The notes below the pieces were generated by a model. The model had not been told where the DNA came from. It worked only from the letters and a program-made list of their open reading frames with translations, and ran no database searches. From positions 1 to 40,981 of the forward strand of contig VRUN01000008.1 in NCBI GenBank assembly GCA_019456075.1: 40,981 nt of DNA, in the 5' to 3' direction. This DNA is from Candidatus Methylomirabilota bacterium. Lineage in GTDB: Bacteria > Methylomirabilota > Methylomirabilia > Methylomirabilales > CSP1-5. Shown here piece after piece: positions 285-35,743 of this stretch (positions are counted from its first letter, which is position 1; every line of letters starts with the position of its first letter). A program made the position numbers and the translations under genes.

Positions 285-3200
285 TCAGGATGACGGCGGC
301 TGCTCCTCCATGAGTTTGACCGTCTGCCCCTGAAGAACGGCTCTGCCCCGCTGATTATTCACTACAATATCGAGGGGGACGATCGGGGTCCCTTTCCCTT
401 TCTGGGAGCGCCGGATCTGGTCTGGCGGTGGGGCCGTGGCCGATAGGCTAAGTTGATCCCCCGTCTCAATCGAAGCTTCCAGCTGCGACACCCTTGCCGT
501 GAGCAGCAGGTGGCCGGGCGAGCTCTCGGCCGAGGCCATCGCCATTGTCCCGACGGCGAGCAGGGGACTCACCTGATGGGGATAGAGGGGACCGAAGAGG
601 ACCTGGGTGGCCCGCACCAGCTCGGGGGTGATCGACTTGGTGAAGGTCTGTTGGCGGGGGGTCGACGGATTGGTGAAGTCGTAGACCGTGGCGGGGACCG
701 CGGGGATTACATCCTGGGCCCACTGCCGGAGCCATGCGAGCTCTGCGGGCGGCGTGGGGAGCAACTCCCCCGCTTTCTTCAGCTTCAGGGTGGCCGTCCC
801 CTCGCAGACGACCGTCCCCTCCTGGTTCACCGCCCGAAGCCGGAGCACGGCTCTCCCGCCCTCCAGGACCTCCTGCACTTCAGCCAGGGGGGTGATGCTG
901 TCCCCGAAATAGACCGGGGCCCGGAAGTGGGCCTCGAGCGCGTCGAGGGTGTAGGCGGGGAGGCGGCGGCCCAGGCTCGCGAGGATGTGGCAGACCGTGA
1001 ACAAGCCGTGGGCGACGAGCCCCCCAAACCGGGACTGCTTGGCATACGCCTGGTCCAGGTGGTAGCGGTTCCGGTCGCCGGAGGCCTTGGCGAAGGCCTG
1101 CACCATCCAGGGACTGACGGTGACGGCATTCCCCTGGAGCTTCTCCCCTGCGAAGACCGCCTCGCCGACCTGTTCCATCCCACCCGGCCTGAGCGCGAGC
1201 AGGAGCCGTTCCCGGGCCACCACATACCGCTCGGCCTCGGTGGGAGTGAGATGGGCGGCCTTGAGGGCCCGCTCCAGTTGCCGGTAGTAGATGCGCGCCG
1301 TCGCCGCATCCACCAGCTCGGCCTGGCCGGTGACCGGGTCGTTGTAAGCGACCGCGCCGAGGTTTCGCTCTTGATCGGCGGTGGCATAGAGCTCGAGGAT
1401 CTCGAGAGCCCGCTCTACCGCGTTGATCCATCGCGCGTTGAACGTCTCCGCCGCCGGCCCCTTGGGTTGGGTAGGTCGCTCGCCGGCGCGTGGCGGATTC
1501 ATCGCGGCGTTGACACCTGCTGCCTGATCCGGTGTGACTATTTTGCCGTGGAAGCCCAAATTGGCGGAGAAGAGGGTCTCCTCTTCGAGCTGCGCGGCAT
1601 CGCTCATGCTATCCACCGCGTCGATATCAGCGGCGGCCGTGGCAGCCACCAGGGCCGACCGGTAGTAGTAAAACCCTTTGGTCTTGGGATCAGACGTCTC
1701 CTCCTTCGCTTGCGCCCCCTCGAGGTCGAGGAAGATCCACATCATCCGCCCGCTGGCGGTGGCGATGGCATAGGCCTCCCGCTCCACGGTCTCTGGCCGG
1801 GTGAGCCGGGCCCCCAGGGCGAGGGAACCGATTGGAAGGCCCACCTCCCGCTCGACGGTAGTGAGGAGCCCCGCCGCATGCCTCACAGCGCGTGGGTGAT
1901 CCACCGCAGGCAGGATGACGGCCTGGACCCGATCCTTGAGGAGCTGGACCAGTTCCTGAAGCTGCTGGGGCGCTTCCAGTCGTTCCAGGTCCATTTGCAT
2001 CGCTACCATCTGGGAGGGGCGCTCCGTCTTTGTCAAAAGCTCAGCCAGCTTTCGCTGGGCCTTCTGCCCATGAGGCCCTCCCCTTCCATCTGCATCCACA
2101 ATTACCATGTCGGCCGACGAGGTAAAGGCGGCCCGCAGGGCGTCGAGATCCTGCCCTGCGACCGTGACCACCGACCGACAGAGCGTCACGGGCCGAGGGA
2201 CGAAGACCAGGGGAGGGAGGATCGGTTGCTCCTCCCGCGCTAGGCGTTCGAGCCGCGCGAAGTCGAAGGGGGAGATGTCGGGGAAAGAGAGGCGCTTTCG
2301 GAGAGGAGAGGGGAACTCCACGGCGTGGCGAGCAATCCCCTCAACGTGCGCGGGATGTACACTCCACTTGCGGTGGATTCCGAGCGCGATGGCCCGGACG
2401 GTGTCTACTTCGGTATCGTCCGCGTTCAACTTGACTGTAATCCCCGTCCCGGCCGCCTTGCCCGTGGCCCGGGCCGCCTCGACCAGTTTCAGGAGCGGGT
2501 AGCGCATGTAGGTGTACTGCTCTTGTTGGACCACGCTCCGGCCCCCGGTGGCCGCCGTGTAGTCGACCACGCCCAGGTTGGCCTCTTCCACCTCGGGGGC
2601 CACCTTTAGGATCTCCTCTGCCGTAAGCACCGCCCCGGGTAGCTCGGTCAACACAAAGATCTTGTGTCTCCCAGTGACCCAGCCCCGCTCCTGCTGTAGG
2701 GCGCGGAGAATCTGGACTGCCACTCGTACGTCCTCCGGCCCTTCCACCTTCGGGAGGTAAATCCCGGCGATGAGATCCCCGATCTCTCGAATCACCTGGA
2801 AGTAGTCCCCGGCTGCCCATTTGGTGCGGAGGTTATTGGGCCGGACCAGGATCATCTGCTCCGGCGGGAACCGGCATTCCGGCTTAACCTGGAAGTGCGC
2901 CCCCTCTCGGATAAACTGCTGCGTGAGCTGGTCCGCCTTCCCTGCTGGCAGGGCATGAGCCTTCAGAAACTCCAGCTCTGCCTCCGAAAGGGTGTGCCCC
3001 CGGAGGGCCCGGACCAGGAGGGTCAGGACGGTGCGGGCAACGTCCTTGCGGGTCGTGGCGACCGCATCTTCCAGGTCGAGGAGGAGGGTGTGGGCCTGGG
3101 ACTGGGCCGCCTTGATCATGAAGTACCAGTTGTCTCCGGGAAAGACGTGCTGGATCGGTCTGGGGGCGTACTCCCAGGCGAGCTGTTGGATGGCCGAATC

Positions 3201-3320
3201 ACGGGTTGCAGCGGAGTTGACCCGTTTCAAGACCTCCCACCGCTCGGCCACCTCGGCCTCGGCCTGCGCCGTATCTCCTCCAAAGGCCGTCACTACGTCG
3301 CTTAAGGCTCGTTCGCTCAT
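285..3320 (-). CDS. Fusion protein: tandem CitE/HpcH (malyl-CoA lyase-like) domains plus MaoC-type hydratase
   Basis: The 1011-residue product combines several enzyme units. Residues about 55-345 form a CitE/HpcH-HpaI beta-barrel. It has LLLDLEDAV near 79, an Arg in LVRPNN near 159, and the metal-binding pair Glu ~225 (LTELPGAV) and Asp ~252 (GVVDYTAATGG). Residues about 372-600 resemble a second CitE unit but lack the Glu-containing loop, so it is probably not catalytic. After a helical linker, residues about 725-870 form a MaoC hot-dog domain carrying the hydratase signature GDRNRYH (~748-754) and FGGLVAHG. The last ~130 residues look like a second, degenerate hot-dog unit. CitE enzymes such as malyl-CoA lyase cleave 3-hydroxyacyl-CoAs, and MaoC enzymes hydrate enoyl-CoAs. 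Together they suggest consecutive steps, for example mesaconyl-CoA to methylmalyl-CoA to glyoxylate plus propionyl-CoA. The substrate is inferred. An AGGAGG site 7 nt ahead of ATG 3320 fixes the start. Confidence 0.82.
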   Translation of the reverse strand: MSERALSDVVTAFGGDTAQAEAEVAERWEVLKRVNSAATRDSAIQQLAWEYAPRPIQHVFPGDNWYFMIKAAQSQAHTLLLDLEDAVATTRKDVARTVLTLLVRALRGHTLSEAELEFLKAHALPAGKADQLTQQFIREGAHFQVKPECRFPPEQMILVRPNNLRTKWAAGDYFQVIREIGDLIAGIYLPKVEGPEDVRVAVQILRALQQERGWVTGRHKIFVLTELPGAVLTAEEILKVAPEVEEANLGVVDYTAATGGRSVVQQEQYTYMRYPLLKLVEAARATGKAAGTGITVKLNADDTEVDTVRAIALGIHRKWSVHPAHVEGIARHAVEFPSPLRKRLSFPDISPFDFARLERLAREEQPILPPLVFVPRPVTLCRSVVTVAGQDLDALRAAFTSSADMVIVDADGRGGPHGQKAQRKLAELLTKTERPSQMVAMQMDLERLEAPQQLQELVQLLKDRVQAVILPAVDHPRAVRHAAGLLTTVEREVGLPIGSLALGARLTRPETVEREAYAIATASGRMMWIFLDLEGAQAKEETSDPKTKGFYYYRSALVAATAAADIDAVDSMSDAAQLEEETLFSANLGFHGKIVTPDQAAGVNAAMNPPRAGERPTQPKGPAAETFNARWINAVERALEILELYATADQERNLGAVAYNDPVTGQAELVDAATARIYYRQLERALKAAHLTPTEAERYVVARERLLLALRPGGMEQVGEAVFAGEKLQGNAVTVSPWMVQAFAKASGDRNRYHLDQAYAKQSRFGGLVAHGLFTVCHILASLGRRLPAYTLDALEAHFRAPVYFGDSITPLAEVQEVLEGGRAVLRLRAVNQEGTVVCEGTATLKLKKAGELLPTPPAELAWLRQWAQDVIPAVPATVYDFTNPSTPRQQTFTKSITPELVRATQVLFGPLYPHQVSPLLAVGTMAMASAESSPGHLLLTARVSQLEASIETGDQLSLSATAPPPDQIRRSQKGKGTPIVPLDIVVNNQRGRAVLQGQTVKLMEEQPPSS

Positions 3321-21462: not shown

Positions 21463-23451
21463 ATGATGGAATACATCTGGTTGGTGCCAGCCTTCCCCCT
21501 GCTGGGGGTTATCATCAATGGGCTCTTCGGGCGGACCTATATCCGGGAACGAGCCCACTACGTGGCGGTCCCGGCCGCGGGCCTTTCTTTTATTGTTGCC
21601 CTGCTTATCTCCCGCCAAGTCTTTGCCGGTCAAACCCTCGATGTGAGCCTTTACCCATGGGTCGTGTCGGGGGATTTTGAGGTGCCGTTCGGATTTCTCG
21701 TAGACCCCCTCTCCACCGTCATGATGCTCACGGTCACCTTCGTGGGGCTTCTCATCCATATTTATTCCATTGGGTATATGCACGACGATCCTGGGTACCC
21801 GCGTTTCTTTGCATATCTGAACCTGTTCATGTTCTCCATGCTCATGCTGATCCTGGCCAACAATTATCTCCTCATGTTTTTGGGCTGGGAGGGGGTAGGG
21901 CTCTGTTCGTATCTCTTGATCGGGTTCTGGTATGAGAAGAAGACGGCGACCGATGCGGGGAACAAGGCCTTCATCGTCAACCGTGTGGGGGACGCCGGAT
22001 TTCTGCTGGGGCTATTCTTGATCTGGACGACCTTCGGGACGCTCCAGTACGGGGAGGTCTTTCACCAGGCCGAGGGGCTGCACGGGGTGCTGACCGCGCC
22101 GGCCGGGGGGGGGCTGTCGGTCGTCACCTGGATCACCCTGGCGCTGTTCATCGGGGCCATAGGCAAGAGTGCCCAGCTGCCGCTATACGTCTGGCTCCCC
22201 GACGCCATGGAGGGGCCGACCCCGGTCTCGGCGCTGATCCACGCGGCCACCATGGTGACGGCAGGGATCTATATGGTGGCCCGCTCGAGCCCCCTGTACA
22301 CCCTGGCGCCGTTCAGCTTGGCCGTGGTGGCGTGGGTGGGGGCACTGACTGCCATCTTCGCGGCGACCATCGCCTGCGTCCAGAATGACATCAAGCGGGT
22401 GATCGCGTACTCGACCATCTCACAGCTAGGGTACATGTTCCTGGGGGTGGGGGTGGGGGCCTTTGCGAGCGGCATCTTCCATCTGTACACCCATGCCGCC
22501 TTCAAGGCGTTACTCTTTCTGGGGGCGGGGGCGGTGATTCATGCGCTGCACCACGAGCAGGACATTCAACGGATGGGGGGACTGCGCCCTCACATGCGGG
22601 TCACAGCGTACACGTTTGCCGTGGGGGCGCTGGCGAATGCGGGGATCTTTCCGTTCGCGGGGTTCTGGTCGAAGGACGAGATCCTCTTTGCGGCGTTCAA
22701 CGGGGGCTTTTACGTGCTCTGGTTTCTGGGGCTAGCGGGAGCATTTCTGACCGGCTTTTACATGGCCCGGCTCTACTTCCTCACGTTCGAGGGGGAGTAC
22801 CGGGGCGATCCACACCATGCCCACGACATTCATGACGCCCCGCCCACGATGGGGATTCCCCTCATTGTGCTGGCGGTCTGCTCCGTGGTGGCTGGCTTTG
22901 TCGGGATTCCCCCCGAGCAGGGCCCGTTTCACCAGTTTCTCGCCCCGGTGCTGCACCATGGGGGCGCGGCGCAGGCGGCGGCGCATGGCCTGGCCGTCCC
23001 CATGGCCGTGCTGTCCCTCCTTGTAGCGGGGGCCGGAATCGGGGTGGGGTATCTCTTTTACGTCAGCGTCAGCTGGCGAAACGTCCCGGAGATCTGGGCC
23101 GCGCGGCTCCAGGGACTCTACCGGGTGGTCTATCACAAATATTATGTGGATGAGCTGTTTTGGGCCATCTTTGGTGACGGATTTCTGGGTCTCTCTCGGT
23201 TCACCTCACAGGTGGATGAAAAGGTCGTGGACGGAGCGGTCAACGGAACCGCGGCGGTCACCCTTGGTTTGAGCACCGGTTCCGACTGGGGGGATATGAA
23301 CATTGTCGATGGGCTGGTCAATAAGATCGCCGATGTCATTCAGGGCGGCAGTCGCAGACTCCGGCTGATCCAGACGGGGGTGGTCCAGAACTACATCCTG
23401 GCGATAGCCATCGGGATCTTCCTGATCGCGGGCGTCTATATCATTCTATAG
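21463..23451 (+). CDS. nuoL: NADH-quinone oxidoreductase subunit L, copy 1
   Basis: NuoL is the distal antiporter-like subunit of complex I. The 662-residue protein has about 16 helices, with FLGWEGVGLCSYLLIGFW near 140-157 (helix-5 Glu), the Lys of GAIGKSAQLPLYVWLPDAME near 230, and the discontinuous-helix segment GPTPVSALIHAATMV. The C-terminus forms the long lateral helix and a final anchor helix. Residues about 175-564 are encoded by DNA that matches the second nuoL (33815) exactly, while the first ~170 residues and the lateral-helix tail differ; this copy has the longer tail. ATG 21463 or 21466 is the start; the frame can extend to a GTG at 21448 inside the heptamer array. Confidence 0.94.
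   Translation: MMEYIWLVPAFPLLGVIINGLFGRTYIRERAHYVAVPAAGLSFIVALLISRQVFAGQTLDVSLYPWVVSGDFEVPFGFLVDPLSTVMMLTVTFVGLLIHIYSIGYMHDDPGYPRFFAYLNLFMFSMLMLILANNYLLMFLGWEGVGLCSYLLIGFWYEKKTATDAGNKAFIVNRVGDAGFLLGLFLIWTTFGTLQYGEVFHQAEGLHGVLTAPAGGGLSVVTWITLALFIGAIGKSAQLPLYVWLPDAMEGPTPVSALIHAATMVTAGIYMVARSSPLYTLAPFSLAVVAWVGALTAIFAATIACVQNDIKRVIAYSTISQLGYMFLGVGVGAFASGIFHLYTHAAFKALLFLGAGAVIHALHHEQDIQRMGGLRPHMRVTAYTFAVGALANAGIFPFAGFWSKDEILFAAFNGGFYVLWFLGLAGAFLTGFYMARLYFLTFEGEYRGDPHHAHDIHDAPPTMGIPLIVLAVCSVVAGFVGIPPEQGPFHQFLAPVLHHGGAAQAAAHGLAVPMAVLSLLVAGAGIGVGYLFYVSVSWRNVPEIWAARLQGLYRVVYHKYYVDELFWAIFGDGFLGLSRFTSQVDEKVVDGAVNGTAAVTLGLSTGSDWGDMNIVDGLVNKIADVIQGGSRRLRLIQTGVVQNYILAIAIGIFLIAGVYIIL
21985..23154. repeat. 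1,170-bp stretch shared identically by the two nuoL genes, copy 1
   Basis: Bases 21985-23154 correspond to 34349-35518 at a constant offset of 12,364 bp. Every segment compared was identical, including all overlapping antisense and alternative-frame translations. A shorter identical patch (21881-21931) precedes it, separated by 53 bp of diverged sequence. Both edges are sharp: outside them the genes differ strongly. Confidence 0.9.
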
Positions 23452-26608: not shown

Positions 26609-27361
26609 GTGGGAGCGATTGAGACACCCCCCCTGATCAGAATTCCGAATTTTATCCCCGGAATCCACGGGAGCTTCATTCCGGATCACATCACCATGAC
26701 GTGGATTGTCATGGCTTTCTTGATTGTCGTGTCGTACCTCGCGACCCGGCGTCTCACCGACGTCCCGGGGCCGGTTCAAAATGTGCTCGAGCAGGTGATA
26801 GAGGCCTTCACCGGGATTCTGGACAGCATCATCGGACATGGGGGACGGCGGTATCTTGCATTGATCGGCACGGCGGGGTTGCTCATTTTTTTTAGTAACA
26901 TTCTCATCCTGATTCCGGGTCTCAGATGCCCGACGGCCAATCTGAACACCACAGCTGCCTTGGCCTTCATCATGGTCGTTTCATACCATTTTTTTGGAGT
27001 CCGCGAGCAGGGTCTCTTGACCTATTTGAAGCATTTCCTCGGACCTGCGGGTGAGCTCCCCAAATTCCTCCTGATCGGTATGGGCTGGATTCTCATACCG
27101 GCCTTTATCTTGGTGGAGATTATCAGCCATCTGGCCCGTCTCGTGTCCCTCTCCTTTCGACTCTTTGGGAATATTTTTGGGGAGGATACAGTGTTCCTCT
27201 TTATTCTGTTTCTGACCACCATTATGTGGCCCATCTACGTAATGACCCCCTTGATTTCAGGACTTGTCATTTTCACCGGATTGATTCAGGCCTTAATCTT
27301 TGTGATGCTATCGACGATGTATATTGCGGGAGCAGTAGAGACTCATCATGCAGAGCATTGA
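26609..27361 (+). CDS. atpB: F-type ATP synthase subunit a
   Basis: Subunit a forms the two half-channels that bring ions to the c-ring of the F0 motor. The 250-residue membrane protein has about six helices. The essential Arg lies in the helix VSLSFRLFGNIFGEDT (Arg near 190), matching Arg210 of E. coli. Other family features are NLNTTAALAF (about 112-121) and the C-terminal FTGLIQALIFVMLSTMYIAGA. The GTG start follows GAGG at a suitable distance. It is paired with atpE and has its own promoter; no atpI/atpZ, b, delta, alpha, gamma, beta or epsilon genes are in the window. Confidence 0.95.
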   Translation: MGAIETPPLIRIPNFIPGIHGSFIPDHITMTWIVMAFLIVVSYLATRRLTDVPGPVQNVLEQVIEAFTGILDSIIGHGGRRYLALIGTAGLLIFFSNILILIPGLRCPTANLNTTAALAFIMVVSYHFFGVREQGLLTYLKHFLGPAGELPKFLLIGMGWILIPAFILVEIISHLARLVSLSFRLFGNIFGEDTVFLFILFLTTIMWPIYVMTPLISGLVIFTGLIQALIFVMLSTMYIAGAVETHHAEH

Positions 27362-27868: not shown

Positions 27869-28300
27869 ATGCTCGTTGAGTACCTTCCCATCCTTCTGTT
27901 CATCGCCGCCGCGGCCCTCTTCGCGGGAGGCTCAATCCTCCTCTCGTCCCTGGCAGGGCCATGGCGCCCCTTCGCAGAAAAGCTCGAACCGTACGAATGC
28001 GGAATGGCGCCGGTGGGTATGGCCCGGGAGCGGTTTTCGGTGAAGTTTTATCTGGTGGCCATGCTGTTTATCATCTTTGATATTGAGATCATCTTTCTGT
28101 TCCCGTGGGCGGTGATCTTCAAGGAGCTCGGATGGTTCGGGTTCTTCGAGATGGGCGGCTTCGTCTTGGTTCTGGTCTTGGGGTTGGCCTATGTCTGGCG
28201 GAAGGGGGGTCTCGAGTGGGACGAGCCGGAACGTGCCGCGGTGGATGGGGAGTCCAGAACGGTCCCAACCGAACAGCGTGCGGGGACAGGATTCAGGTGA
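27869..28300 (+). CDS. nuoA: NADH-quinone oxidoreductase subunit A, copy 2
   Basis: The 143-residue protein has three membrane helices, the loop signature PYECGMAPVG (about 42-51) and FIIFDIEIIFLFPWAV (about 68-83) with the acidic residues of the coupling path. The first ~118 residues align with NuoA. The remaining ~25, Glu/Arg-rich, are an extension absent from copy 1. It opens run 2 and is followed by the fused nuoE-nuoF, not by nuoB. ATG 27869 follows the atpE terminator by 24 bp; no good promoter was recognised in that gap, so some read-through is possible. Confidence 0.92.
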   Translation: MLVEYLPILLFIAAAALFAGGSILLSSLAGPWRPFAEKLEPYECGMAPVGMARERFSVKFYLVAMLFIIFDIEIIFLFPWAVIFKELGWFGFFEMGGFVLVLVLGLAYVWRKGGLEWDEPERAAVDGESRTVPTEQRAGTGFR

Positions 28301-28319
28301 AAGACGAGAGGTAAGGAAA

Positions 28320-30134
28320 GTGACCTCGGCGAAACTCCAACAGGCCTCAGCCGAAATTCTGAAGCGCTATCCCCAGAACCAGAAGCGGTCGGCTCTCCTC
28401 CCTCTCCTGTTCTTGGCCCAGGAGGAACGTGGCTATCTGAGCCCGGAGTCTCTTGAGGAGATTGCACACCTTCTCGAGATGCGCCCTACCGATGTCTGGG
28501 AAACTGCCAGCTTTTACACCATGTTTCATTTTCGACCGATGGGGCGATGCCACATTGAGGTCTGTCACAATCTGTCGTGCACCCTTTTGGGGGCAGAATC
28601 GCTTTTAGATGTTCTGAAGGGGCGCTTGCAGATTCGGGAGGGAGAGACAACCCCGGATGGCCGCTTTAGTTTGGGAACGGCCGAGTGCCTGGCTGCTTGC
28701 GACGGGGCACCGGTCGTGCAGGTCAACGGGTATCACTACGGGCCTCTGAACCGGAGCCAGCTCGAGGAACTCTTGGAGGGGTTTGCACGCGGGGAATTAC
28801 CCGAGAGATACCGGTATCAGCCGTGGGCAGGCCCGCCCTCCCGTGGACCAGAACCCGTCAACACCTTCGAGAGGATCCTCCACCAGCATCTCCTCGACCC
28901 GAGCTACGACGGGCGCATCGAGGCGTATCTCGAAAGAGGGGGCTACCAGGCCCTCCCCAAGGCCGTTCGCGAGTATCGCCCGTCAGAGATCATCGAGATG
29001 GTCAAACGATCCGGCCTTCGGGGGCGGGGGGGTGCCGGCTTTCCAACCGGGGTGAAATGGGGGTTTGTTCCCAAGGATCCTGGAATACCGAAATATCTCC
29101 TCTGCAATGCCGATGAGGGAGAACCCGGAACCTTCAAAGATAGGGAGCTCTTGGAGCGGGACCCCCACCAGGTCCTCGAGGGGATTATCATTGCCAGCTA
29201 CGCCATTGGGTCCGAGACTTCGTATATCTATCTTCGCGGTGAGTTCCTGGAGGCGGTCGCGATCCTGGAACGGGCCCTCCAGGAGGCGTATGCGCACGGC
29301 TTCCTCGGAAAGAAGATCCTGGGAAGCGATTTCAATCTGGATGTCTACCTCCATCGAGGGGCAGGCGCCTATATTTGTGGAGAAGAAACGGCTCTCATCG
29401 AGTCGCTCGAGGGGAAGCGGGGCGAGCCAAGGATCCGGCCCCCCTTTCCGGCGGTGAAGGGCCTCTATCAGTGTCCGACGGTGGTGAACAATGTGGAAAC
29501 GCTCTGCAACATCCCGCATATCATCGTCCGAGGCCCCAAGTGGTTTGCCAGTATGGGGACCCCGAAGAGTACGGGCACCCGGGTTTTCTCGGTGAGTGGT
29601 CACGTCCGCCGCCCGGGGAACTACGAGCTCCCGTTGAACGCCACATTGCGACAGTTGATCTACGAACATGCTGGCGGGATACTCGATGATCGCAGAATCA
29701 AGGCGATCATCCCGGGCGGGAGCTCTGCGCCGACACTCACCGCAGATCACCTGGATGTCGGCCTGGATTTCGAGTCGCTCGCCGCTGCCGGATCGATGGG
29801 AGGTTCAGGGGCTGTCATTGTCCTGGACGAGACCACCTGCATGGTGAAGGTGGGGGAGGTGATCAACCGGTTTTACCACCATGAATCCTGTGGCCAGTGT
29901 ACCCAGTGTCGTGAGGGGACCGCCTGGCTCCACAAGATCCTGAAGCGGATCGAGGACGGGCGGGGGCAGATGGCCGATCTCGAGGTACTCAAGGATGTCT
30001 GTCGCAACATGAAGGGGCAGACAATCTGCGTCTTGAGCGATTCGGCGGCGATGCCCACGGAGAGCTATATGCACTACTTTCGCGAGGAATTCGAGGCACA
30101 CATCCAGCAGGGGCGGTGCCCGTTTCGGGCATAG
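28320..30134 (+). CDS. nuoEF: Fused NADH dehydrogenase subunits E and F
   Basis: This 604-residue protein joins two subunits of the NADH-oxidising tip of complex I. Residues about 1-165 are NuoE, with the [2Fe-2S] ligands CHNLSC (C-x4-C) and CLAAC (C-x3-C). After a linker, residues about 180-604 are NuoF. These carry the FMN/NADH loop GLRGRGGAGFPTG, NADEGEPGTFKDRELLE, the GAYICGEETALIESLEG segment, and the N3 cluster ligands ESCGQCTQCREGT plus the Cys of GQTICVLSD. NuoF takes hydride from NADH; NuoE carries cluster N1a. GTG 28320 is preceded by GAGAGGTAAGGA. The frame also continues upstream over nuoA, but that part is a shadow. No stop or frameshift separates the halves. Confidence 0.93.
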   Translation: MTSAKLQQASAEILKRYPQNQKRSALLPLLFLAQEERGYLSPESLEEIAHLLEMRPTDVWETASFYTMFHFRPMGRCHIEVCHNLSCTLLGAESLLDVLKGRLQIREGETTPDGRFSLGTAECLAACDGAPVVQVNGYHYGPLNRSQLEELLEGFARGELPERYRYQPWAGPPSRGPEPVNTFERILHQHLLDPSYDGRIEAYLERGGYQALPKAVREYRPSEIIEMVKRSGLRGRGGAGFPTGVKWGFVPKDPGIPKYLLCNADEGEPGTFKDRELLERDPHQVLEGIIIASYAIGSETSYIYLRGEFLEAVAILERALQEAYAHGFLGKKILGSDFNLDVYLHRGAGAYICGEETALIESLEGKRGEPRIRPPFPAVKGLYQCPTVVNNVETLCNIPHIIVRGPKWFASMGTPKSTGTRVFSVSGHVRRPGNYELPLNATLRQLIYEHAGGILDDRRIKAIIPGGSSAPTLTADHLDVGLDFESLAAAGSMGGSGAVIVLDETTCMVKVGEVINRFYHHESCGQCTQCREGTAWLHKILKRIEDGRGQMADLEVLKDVCRNMKGQTICVLSDSAAMPTESYMHYFREEFEAHIQQGRCPFRA

Positions 30135-33814: not shown

Positions 33815-35743
33815 ATGGAAAATCTCATCTGGTTGGTGCCGACATTCCCCTTGGCGGGTTTTCTCGTGAACATTTTTCTCGGACGGCGACTCGCCCGTCT
33901 CTGGGTCAGTTGGGTGGCCTGCGGCGCGATGGGGATCTCGTTCGGCGTGAGTCTCGGCCTTTTCTTCCACCTCATAAACCTTGCTCCTCACCTCAGACAC
34001 CTGGAGCAGGAACTCTTCACCTGGATCCGGATCGCGGATTTCAAGGCTGCCGCGGGCTTTCTCCTCGACCCGCTCTCAGCGGTGATGATTCTGGTGGTGA
34101 CTGGGGTCGGGTTTCTCATCCACGTCTATTCGATCGGCTACATGGGGGAGGATCGTGATTTCGCCAGGTTTTTTGCGTACCTCAACCTCTTTGCCTTCTT
34201 CATGCTCCTCTTGGTCCTGGCGAATAACTATCTCCTCCTGTTCGTGGGCTGGGAGGGGGTAGGGCTCTGTTCGTATCTCTTGATCGGGTTCTGGTTCGAA
34301 AGGCCGGCCGCGGCCAGCGCGGCCCAGAAGGCTTTTGTCGTCAACCGCGTGGGGGACGCCGGATTTCTGCTGGGGCTATTCTTGATCTGGACGACCTTCG
34401 GGACGCTCCAGTACGGGGAGGTCTTTCACCAGGCCGAGGGGCTGCACGGGGTGCTGACCGCGCCGGCCGGGGGGGGGCTGTCGGTCGTCACCTGGATCAC
34501 CCTGGCGCTGTTCATCGGGGCCATAGGCAAGAGTGCCCAGCTGCCGCTATACGTCTGGCTCCCCGACGCCATGGAGGGGCCGACCCCGGTCTCGGCGCTG
34601 ATCCACGCGGCCACCATGGTGACGGCAGGGATCTATATGGTGGCCCGCTCGAGCCCCCTGTACACCCTGGCGCCGTTCAGCTTGGCCGTGGTGGCGTGGG
34701 TGGGGGCACTGACTGCCATCTTCGCGGCGACCATCGCCTGCGTCCAGAATGACATCAAGCGGGTGATCGCGTACTCGACCATCTCACAGCTAGGGTACAT
34801 GTTCCTGGGGGTGGGGGTGGGGGCCTTTGCGAGCGGCATCTTCCATCTGTACACCCATGCCGCCTTCAAGGCGTTACTCTTTCTGGGGGCGGGGGCGGTG
34901 ATTCATGCGCTGCACCACGAGCAGGACATTCAACGGATGGGGGGACTGCGCCCTCACATGCGGGTCACAGCGTACACGTTTGCCGTGGGGGCGCTGGCGA
35001 ATGCGGGGATCTTTCCGTTCGCGGGGTTCTGGTCGAAGGACGAGATCCTCTTTGCGGCGTTCAACGGGGGCTTTTACGTGCTCTGGTTTCTGGGGCTAGC
35101 GGGAGCATTTCTGACCGGCTTTTACATGGCCCGGCTCTACTTCCTCACGTTCGAGGGGGAGTACCGGGGCGATCCACACCATGCCCACGACATTCATGAC
35201 GCCCCGCCCACGATGGGGATTCCCCTCATTGTGCTGGCGGTCTGCTCCGTGGTGGCTGGCTTTGTCGGGATTCCCCCCGAGCAGGGCCCGTTTCACCAGT
35301 TTCTCGCCCCGGTGCTGCACCATGGGGGCGCGGCGCAGGCGGCGGCGCATGGCCTGGCCGTCCCCATGGCCGTGCTGTCCCTCCTTGTAGCGGGGGCCGG
35401 AATCGGGGTGGGGTATCTCTTTTACGTCAGCGTCAGCTGGCGAAACGTCCCGGAGATCTGGGCCGCGCGGCTCCAGGGACTCTACCGGGTGGTCTATCAC
35501 AAATATTATGTGGATGAGTTCTATCAAGATTGGGTCGTGGGTCCCCTCGACCGCCTAGCGTTTTTTCTCTGGCGGGGGTTTGACGTGGCCGTGGTGGACG
35601 GGGCCGTAAATGGGGTAGCCCGATTGATGGAGATGGGAAGTTGGGGGCTCCGGCGGATCCAGACCGGGGTGGTCTTCAACTACGTCCTCTCTATTCTTGT
35701 CGGTGTCGTCATCTTCTTGGGTTATCTGGTCTGGGGGAGGTAG
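33815..35743 (+). CDS. nuoL: NADH-quinone oxidoreductase subunit L, copy 2
   Basis: This second distal antiporter-like subunit has 642 residues. It has VGWEGVGLCSYLLIGFW near 145-161, GAIGKSAQLPLYVWLPDAME near 235-254 and the same core as copy 1. Residues about 179-568 come from the 1,170-bp stretch shared exactly with 21985-23154. The N-terminal ~178 residues and the last ~74 differ: here the lateral helix and anchor are shorter (VVGPLDRLAFFLWRGFD in place of a longer amphipathic segment). ATG 33815 follows GAGGG and lies 13 bp after the array; the frame extends further upstream through the array but without family likeness. nuoM starts 3 bp after the stop. Confidence 0.94.
   Translation: MENLIWLVPTFPLAGFLVNIFLGRRLARLWVSWVACGAMGISFGVSLGLFFHLINLAPHLRHLEQELFTWIRIADFKAAAGFLLDPLSAVMILVVTGVGFLIHVYSIGYMGEDRDFARFFAYLNLFAFFMLLLVLANNYLLLFVGWEGVGLCSYLLIGFWFERPAAASAAQKAFVVNRVGDAGFLLGLFLIWTTFGTLQYGEVFHQAEGLHGVLTAPAGGGLSVVTWITLALFIGAIGKSAQLPLYVWLPDAMEGPTPVSALIHAATMVTAGIYMVARSSPLYTLAPFSLAVVAWVGALTAIFAATIACVQNDIKRVIAYSTISQLGYMFLGVGVGAFASGIFHLYTHAAFKALLFLGAGAVIHALHHEQDIQRMGGLRPHMRVTAYTFAVGALANAGIFPFAGFWSKDEILFAAFNGGFYVLWFLGLAGAFLTGFYMARLYFLTFEGEYRGDPHHAHDIHDAPPTMGIPLIVLAVCSVVAGFVGIPPEQGPFHQFLAPVLHHGGAAQAAAHGLAVPMAVLSLLVAGAGIGVGYLFYVSVSWRNVPEIWAARLQGLYRVVYHKYYVDEFYQDWVVGPLDRLAFFLWRGFDVAVVDGAVNGVARLMEMGSWGLRRIQTGVVFNYVLSILVGVVIFLGYLVWGR
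34349..35518. repeat. 1,170-bp stretch shared identically by the two nuoL genes, copy 2
   Basis: This is the counterpart of 21985-23154 (offset 12,364 bp, same orientation). Identity starts within the codons for RVGDAG and ends at the codons for YYVDE. The small separate patch 34245-34295 also matches copy 1. Direct repeats of this size could recombine and delete the 12.4 kb between them. Confidence 0.9.

Follow-up and report, generated by a model that had tools for sequence, protein, structure and literature searches.

The window, the whole stretch of 40,981 nucleotides that was analysed, comes from a Candidatus Methylomirabilota (NC10) bacterium of the CSP1-5 type. On its minus strand, at 285-3320, lies an ORF of 1011 amino acids with an ATG start; its Pfam matches are to HpcH_HpaI (E 1.2e-30, spread over three stretches) and to MaoC (4.1e-14). 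The original prediction had placed a 1011-residue protein of four units here: an active-looking CitE domain, an apparently inactive CitE-like domain, a MaoC domain with an intact hydratase motif, and a degenerate hot-dog. The ORF is as described and all four units are present, but a CitE-type lid carrying a presumed catalytic Asp, which follows the degenerate barrel and precedes the MaoC domain, had been overlooked. The parts are as follows.

285..3320, minus strand: whole ORF, 1011 aa, Mcl-lid-MaoC fusion (ORF list, Pfam, orthologues)
3165..3320, minus strand: N-terminal helical extension, residues 1-52 (helices in the model; conserved in orthologues)
2322..3164, minus strand: barrel 1, a CitE/Mcl TIM barrel, residues 53-333, with D82, E84, D85, R160, E226 and D253 intact (profile alignment; literature mapping from PMC3832036)
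2187..2321, minus strand: linker, residues 334-378, with no lid after barrel 1 (secondary structure of the model)
1488..2186, minus strand: barrel 2, a degenerate CitE-like unit, residues 379-611, with Q442, T507 and G535 at the Arg/Glu/Asp positions (profile alignment, conservation)
1191..1427, minus strand: CitE/Mcl-type lid, residues 632-710, a helix, a beta-hairpin and a helix (alignment, model, conservation)
1308..1310, minus strand: codon of D671, presumed catalytic lid Asp, the equivalent of Mcl Asp299 (orthologue conservation, lid alignment, model)
771..1160, minus strand: catalytic MaoC hot-dog, residues 721-850, with D749/H754 (Pfam, PDB profile matches, residues)
306..668, minus strand: second, degenerate hot-dog, residues 885-1005 (model, Foldseek, conservation)

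The protein is an unbroken single-chain fusion in six of the seven genomes of the genus (G000, the window's own, to G006), with 79-99% identity in the five others; the seventh, G002, contains only pieces of a split copy. Remoter fused relatives occur in three other NC10 genomes (G027, 66% identity; G016 and G023, 38%), and named records assign the fusion group to NC10/Methylomirabilota. Because fused orthologues are found in five further genomes of the genus and purifying selection acts on all of the segments (among near orthologues, dN is far lower than dS), the fusion is not a chance product.

Elsewhere in the window, the ORF list shows two partly redundant complex I gene sets at 17244-38880, in which the nuoH, J, L, M and N types each occur twice. 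Between the sets lie an ATP synthase a-subunit-like ORF (26609-27361) and a fused nuoE-nuoF-like ORF (28191-30134). The two nuoL-like genes share an exactly identical 1170-bp stretch, at 21985-23154 and 34349-35518, flanked by sequence that is 62-84% alike; either gene conversion has taken place recently or the identity is an artefact of assembly.

Barrel 1 is the unit that is complete at the active site. Its profile, compared with the PDB, finds the malyl/beta-methylmalyl-CoA lyase of M. extorquens first (5ugr, 7.5e-31), and also the Mcl proteins of R. sphaeroides (4l9y, 5.6e-24) and C. aurantiacus (4l7z, 4.9e-22); the best match to a citrate lyase CitE is far weaker (5.7e-12). The top Foldseek match of the model is likewise Mcl 4l9y. 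In the 4l9y alignment, Arg76, Glu141 and Asp168 correspond to R160, E226 and D253 of barrel 1, and the positions of Asp42, Glu44 and Asp45 of the R. sphaeroides enzyme are filled by D82, E84 and D85; the fusion has all seven of the residues that PMC3832036 lists for the catalytic site. Judged by its sequence, barrel 1 is closest to the beta-methylmalyl-CoA lyases. A 30- to 40-residue insertion after the sixth strand is a feature of the Mcl family and has been called MCL-specific (PMC3832036). The full insertion is absent from barrel 1, which in the alignment is about 20 residues shorter than 5ugr at this point.

A different lyase reaction can be considered here, namely that of a citramalyl-CoA lyase, with the other half of the protein serving as an itaconyl-CoA or mesaconyl-C4-CoA hydratase and the pair yielding pyruvate and acetyl-CoA, as in itaconate breakdown or the second 3-hydroxypropionate cycle. 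The NCBIfam models RipC/Ccl (NF038242) and citE (TIGR01588) do register on the fusion, at 76 and 104 bits, but these scores are far under the curated cut-offs of 375 and 443. Barrel 1 also matches the citramalyl-CoA lyase 8khl at only 5.4e-4, against 7.5e-31 for Mcl, and the genomic context consists of Ccr, mutase and PHB genes. We therefore give this assignment only a slim chance.

The second barrel still matches Mcl (1.8e-11), having lost the Arg, Glu and Asp of the active site. An AlphaFold2 model of the full chain (mean pLDDT 82, pTM 0.84) contains a single lid, composed of a helix (634-652), a hairpin (656-660/667-671) that ends in D671, and a second helix (672-687). Its secondary structure places this lid after unit 2, and there is none after barrel 1. 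Mcl enzymes are trimers or hexamers whose neighbouring subunits swap lids. In Mcl, the lid is formed by C-terminal helices joined by a beta-hairpin and carries the catalytic Asp; each active site is closed by the lid of a neighbouring subunit, which supplies that residue (PMC3832036). When the fusion lid is aligned with CitE lids, D671 falls on the lid Asp in an alignment that is statistically weak (hhalign probability 9.5), and a profile built from the lid alone retrieved no solved lid from the PDB. Residues 632-710 were also considered as a malate-synthase C-terminal domain; this assignment was rejected, since the malate synthase models fail and a lid, being shorter, agrees with the secondary structure.

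Conservation differs between the parts of the lyase tandem. Identity to the relative L045 is 89% for barrel 1, 91% for the lid and 73% for barrel 2; for the Omnitrophota relative L048, the corresponding values are 60%, 62% and 32%. In Elusimicrobiota relatives, unit 2 is shortened and the lid is retained. The lid equals barrel 1 in conservation and barrel 2 falls far behind, a pattern which suggests that the dead barrel has been kept as a lid donor for barrel 1. Furthermore, because barrel 1 lacks a lid, and barrel 2 lacks an active site but has one, the best reading of the tandem is a pseudo-dimer made by fusion, whose live unit borrows the lid and D671 of the dead unit. By analogy with Mcl, that lid would close the active site of barrel 1 in the same chain. 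The original prediction had described this unit as apparently inactive, and its likely role as lid donor had not been foreseen. Compared with Mcl1 (4l9y, 4l7z, 5ugr), the fusion has the same barrel fold, all of the catalytic and Mg-site residues, a lid with Asp, and the same pathway context. It differs in its tandem barrels with one dead, in a sole lid that follows the dead barrel, in the incomplete MCL-specific insertion, and in the fused hydratase.

The first hot-dog carries the hydratase motif (D749/H754), and on residue inspection the D-x4-H motif was not found in the second hot-dog, which had been predicted to be degenerate. Among several double hot-dog matches, Foldseek returns the mesaconyl-CoA hydratase MeaC, 8hgn (E 2.4e-11, TM (target) 0.57); 8hgn is absent from the PDB profile matches of the MaoC half at E 0.01. 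MeaC/Mch (8hgn) and the fusion share the double hot-dog fold and the proposed reaction. However, MeaC does not match the hydratase half by sequence, and its catalytic Asn226/His231 lie in the second (C-terminal) hot-dog, whereas D749/H754 lie in the first. On these grounds, we place the hydratase half outside the known MeaC/Mch family. The closest relatives of the MaoC half by sequence are generic (R)-specific enoyl-CoA hydratases, and the closest solved relatives of its first hot-dog, 5cpg and 1iq6, differ in being single hot-dog, stand-alone enzymes for crotonyl-type substrates. The haloarchaeal Mch of the methylaspartate cycle has two hydratase domains, the first of which is homologous to the one-domain (R)-hydratases (PMC5592240). 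From this published description, its two-domain architecture can be likened to that of the fusion's hydratase half, from which it differs in being encoded by a separate gene. Against plasmids, the MaoC half and barrel 1 give distant matches only.

The resemblance to (R)-specific hydratases, together with the absence of MeaC-type features from the MaoC half, would suit a protein in which a beta-methylmalyl/malyl-CoA lyase is joined to a crotonyl-CoA/(R)-3-hydroxybutyryl-CoA hydratase, so that the two halves serve non-consecutive steps of the same pathway. In the host genome, however, that hydration step is already served by a stand-alone MaoC protein (G000:C32:33165-33509) and by an enoyl-CoA hydratase beside Hbd in a PHB cluster. 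In addition, pairing with the lyase fits consecutive steps better, and no other Mch candidate was identified by searches made without a dedicated model. This arrangement is unlikely, though the likeliest of the alternatives. For the hydratase half, hydration of mesaconyl-CoA is the preferred reading.

The PHB/EMC cluster on contig C32 of the host genome includes an SDR of the acetoacetyl-CoA reductase/FabG kind, a PhaR-like gene, 3-hydroxybutyryl-CoA dehydrogenase, enoyl-CoA hydratase, class III PhaC, thiolase, an acyl-CoA mutase and an acyl-CoA dehydrogenase. Ccr scores above its family cut-off in G001, G003, G005, G006, G016, G023 and G027; the host copy is split across the ends of two contigs, and G004 is without Ccr. 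In G027 and G029, ccr, an acyl-CoA dehydrogenase gene and a mutase gene stand in a row. The order in G023 is ccr, a FabH-like gene, acyl-CoA dehydrogenase and a mutase gene running off the contig, and the fusion begins another contig; in G016, a mutase gene ends directly upstream of the fusion relative. A clear orthologue (46-49% identity) of the acyl-CoA dehydrogenase that is encoded beside a giant Elusimicrobiota relative is present in 8 of 10 fusion genomes versus 2 of 31 others, G003 being without a clear one. The co-occurrence with the fusion gives Fisher p values, which ignore shared ancestry, of 1.9e-5 for the acyl-CoA dehydrogenase and 0.002 for Ccr. Both are found without the fusion in G029 and G013. 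The mutases may be either Ecm or Mcm; annotated plasmid records, consulted to place them as Ecm, say only methylmalonyl-CoA mutase family.

Throughout G000-G006, every PF03328 (HpcH/HpaI) match falls in the fusion or in its split paralogue, and no credible isocitrate lyase was found in the genus save a fragment in G004. Malate synthase occurs in G001, G002, G004 and G005 only, PF01274 not having been found in G000, G003 or G006. That gap, and membership of the CitE/Mcl/malate synthase superfamily, could be taken to mean that the fusion is a malate-synthase-like enzyme or a malyl-CoA lyase for glyoxylate assimilation, with an attached hydratase of unrelated function. The fusion does not pass the malate synthase models, however (12.3 bits for TIGR01344 and 17.1 for PF01274, under their cut-offs), the four genomes with malate synthase have the fusion or its split copy as well, and relatives are fused to Ccr. 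We regard such a role as very improbable.

The split paralogue was examined at L034 5283-10379, where a MaoC ORF is followed by a two-barrel lyase ORF and then an MFS transporter. Each of the two enzyme ORFs has its own copy of the lid region, the picture to be expected had the fusion been duplicated in tandem and the duplicate then cut back at either side. In this paralogue (G001 C7, G000 C32), the lyase ORF retains all of the barrel-1 catalytic residues and the lid Asp; in the lid relic of the MaoC ORF, the Asp is kept and only the residues that follow it are changed. Near-copies of residues 918-1008, in the second hot-dog, lie at two contig ends of the host genome (C32:78738-79007 and C77:51194-51466), which puts the split paralogue at a break in the assembly.

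Outside NC10, relatives are embedded in much larger chains. Two of 248 Elusimicrobiota genomes searched encode a lyase-led giant chain of 2162-2172 aa as a single ORF:

L051 5989-12477: Elusimicrobiota giant ORF
L175 4815-11333: Elusimicrobiota giant ORF

In these proteins, the lyase and lid are followed by 3-hydroxyacyl-CoA dehydrogenase, an MDR domain resembling Ccr, a stretch weakly similar to epimerases, and the MaoC pair. Upstream of each is a mutase gene, and L175 also has an acyl-CoA dehydrogenase gene downstream. One of 237 Omnitrophota genomes searched has a 2640-aa chain consisting of the whole 1011-aa unit, full-length and 45% identical over the best segment, and then Ccr, whose 342 bits are somewhat under the family cut-off of 379. 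The ORFs that follow encode acyl-CoA dehydrogenases, and then an AMP-ligase, a dehydrogenase and two mutase domains. In all, four consecutive Omnitrophota ORFs of 2640, 1727, 3472 and 2173 aa (L048 3814-11736; same contig 22898-52967, L144 and L145) share similar leader-like N-terminal regions and similar C-terminal regions; the first three contain ethylmalonyl-CoA-type enzyme domains and the fourth looks carboxyltransferase-like. The sparse distribution outside NC10 suggests transfer. These genomes are metagenome bins, for which a binning error is possible, but each fusion is one open frame.

Together, these observations point to a covalent two-step enzyme that would end the ethylmalonyl-CoA pathway, by which two-carbon units are assimilated. 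The MaoC half would hydrate mesaconyl-CoA, and barrel 1, its active site closed by the lid and D671 of the dead unit, would then cleave beta-methylmalyl-CoA to glyoxylate and propionyl-CoA; barrel 1 may also join acetyl-CoA and glyoxylate to give malyl-CoA. The intermediate could be channelled between the two sites. We consider it probable that the protein is a mesaconyl-CoA hydratase/beta-methylmalyl-CoA lyase of this pathway with a dead unit as lid donor. The original prediction of successive mesaconyl-CoA hydration and methylmalyl-CoA cleavage has good support from context, since Ccr, mutase and acyl-CoA dehydrogenase co-occur with the fusion, mutase genes adjoin its relatives and some relatives are fused to Ccr, and it agrees with the Mcl-like barrel 1; it is weakened by a hydratase half that is not MeaC/Mch. 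Nothing in the analysis refuted it.

The view that this exact domain order is not known to have been characterised agrees with the open-licence literature, in which we found no description of such a fusion. NC10 bacteria of the CSP1-5 type are reported to have the Calvin cycle and no serine pathway (PMC6094997, PMC10406867); by word search, glyoxylate is unmentioned in either paper and ethylmalonyl in PMC10406867. What is new is the covalent arrangement with its unusual live/dead pair; the chemistry and the folds are already known. The balance tips slightly towards the broader view that this is an undescribed hydratase/lyase in which a dead unit survives only as a lid donor, and the small member of a multienzyme series that extends to chains of more than 2000 aa in Elusimicrobiota and Omnitrophota. 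If so, the last two steps of the ethylmalonyl-CoA route would be filled in for uncultured NC10 methylotrophs, and the fusion would be a naturally occurring example of an oligomeric enzyme with swapped lids rebuilt as one live and one dead unit in a single chain. The giant relatives, in turn, would represent a metabolic pathway carried in chains the size of polyketide synthases.
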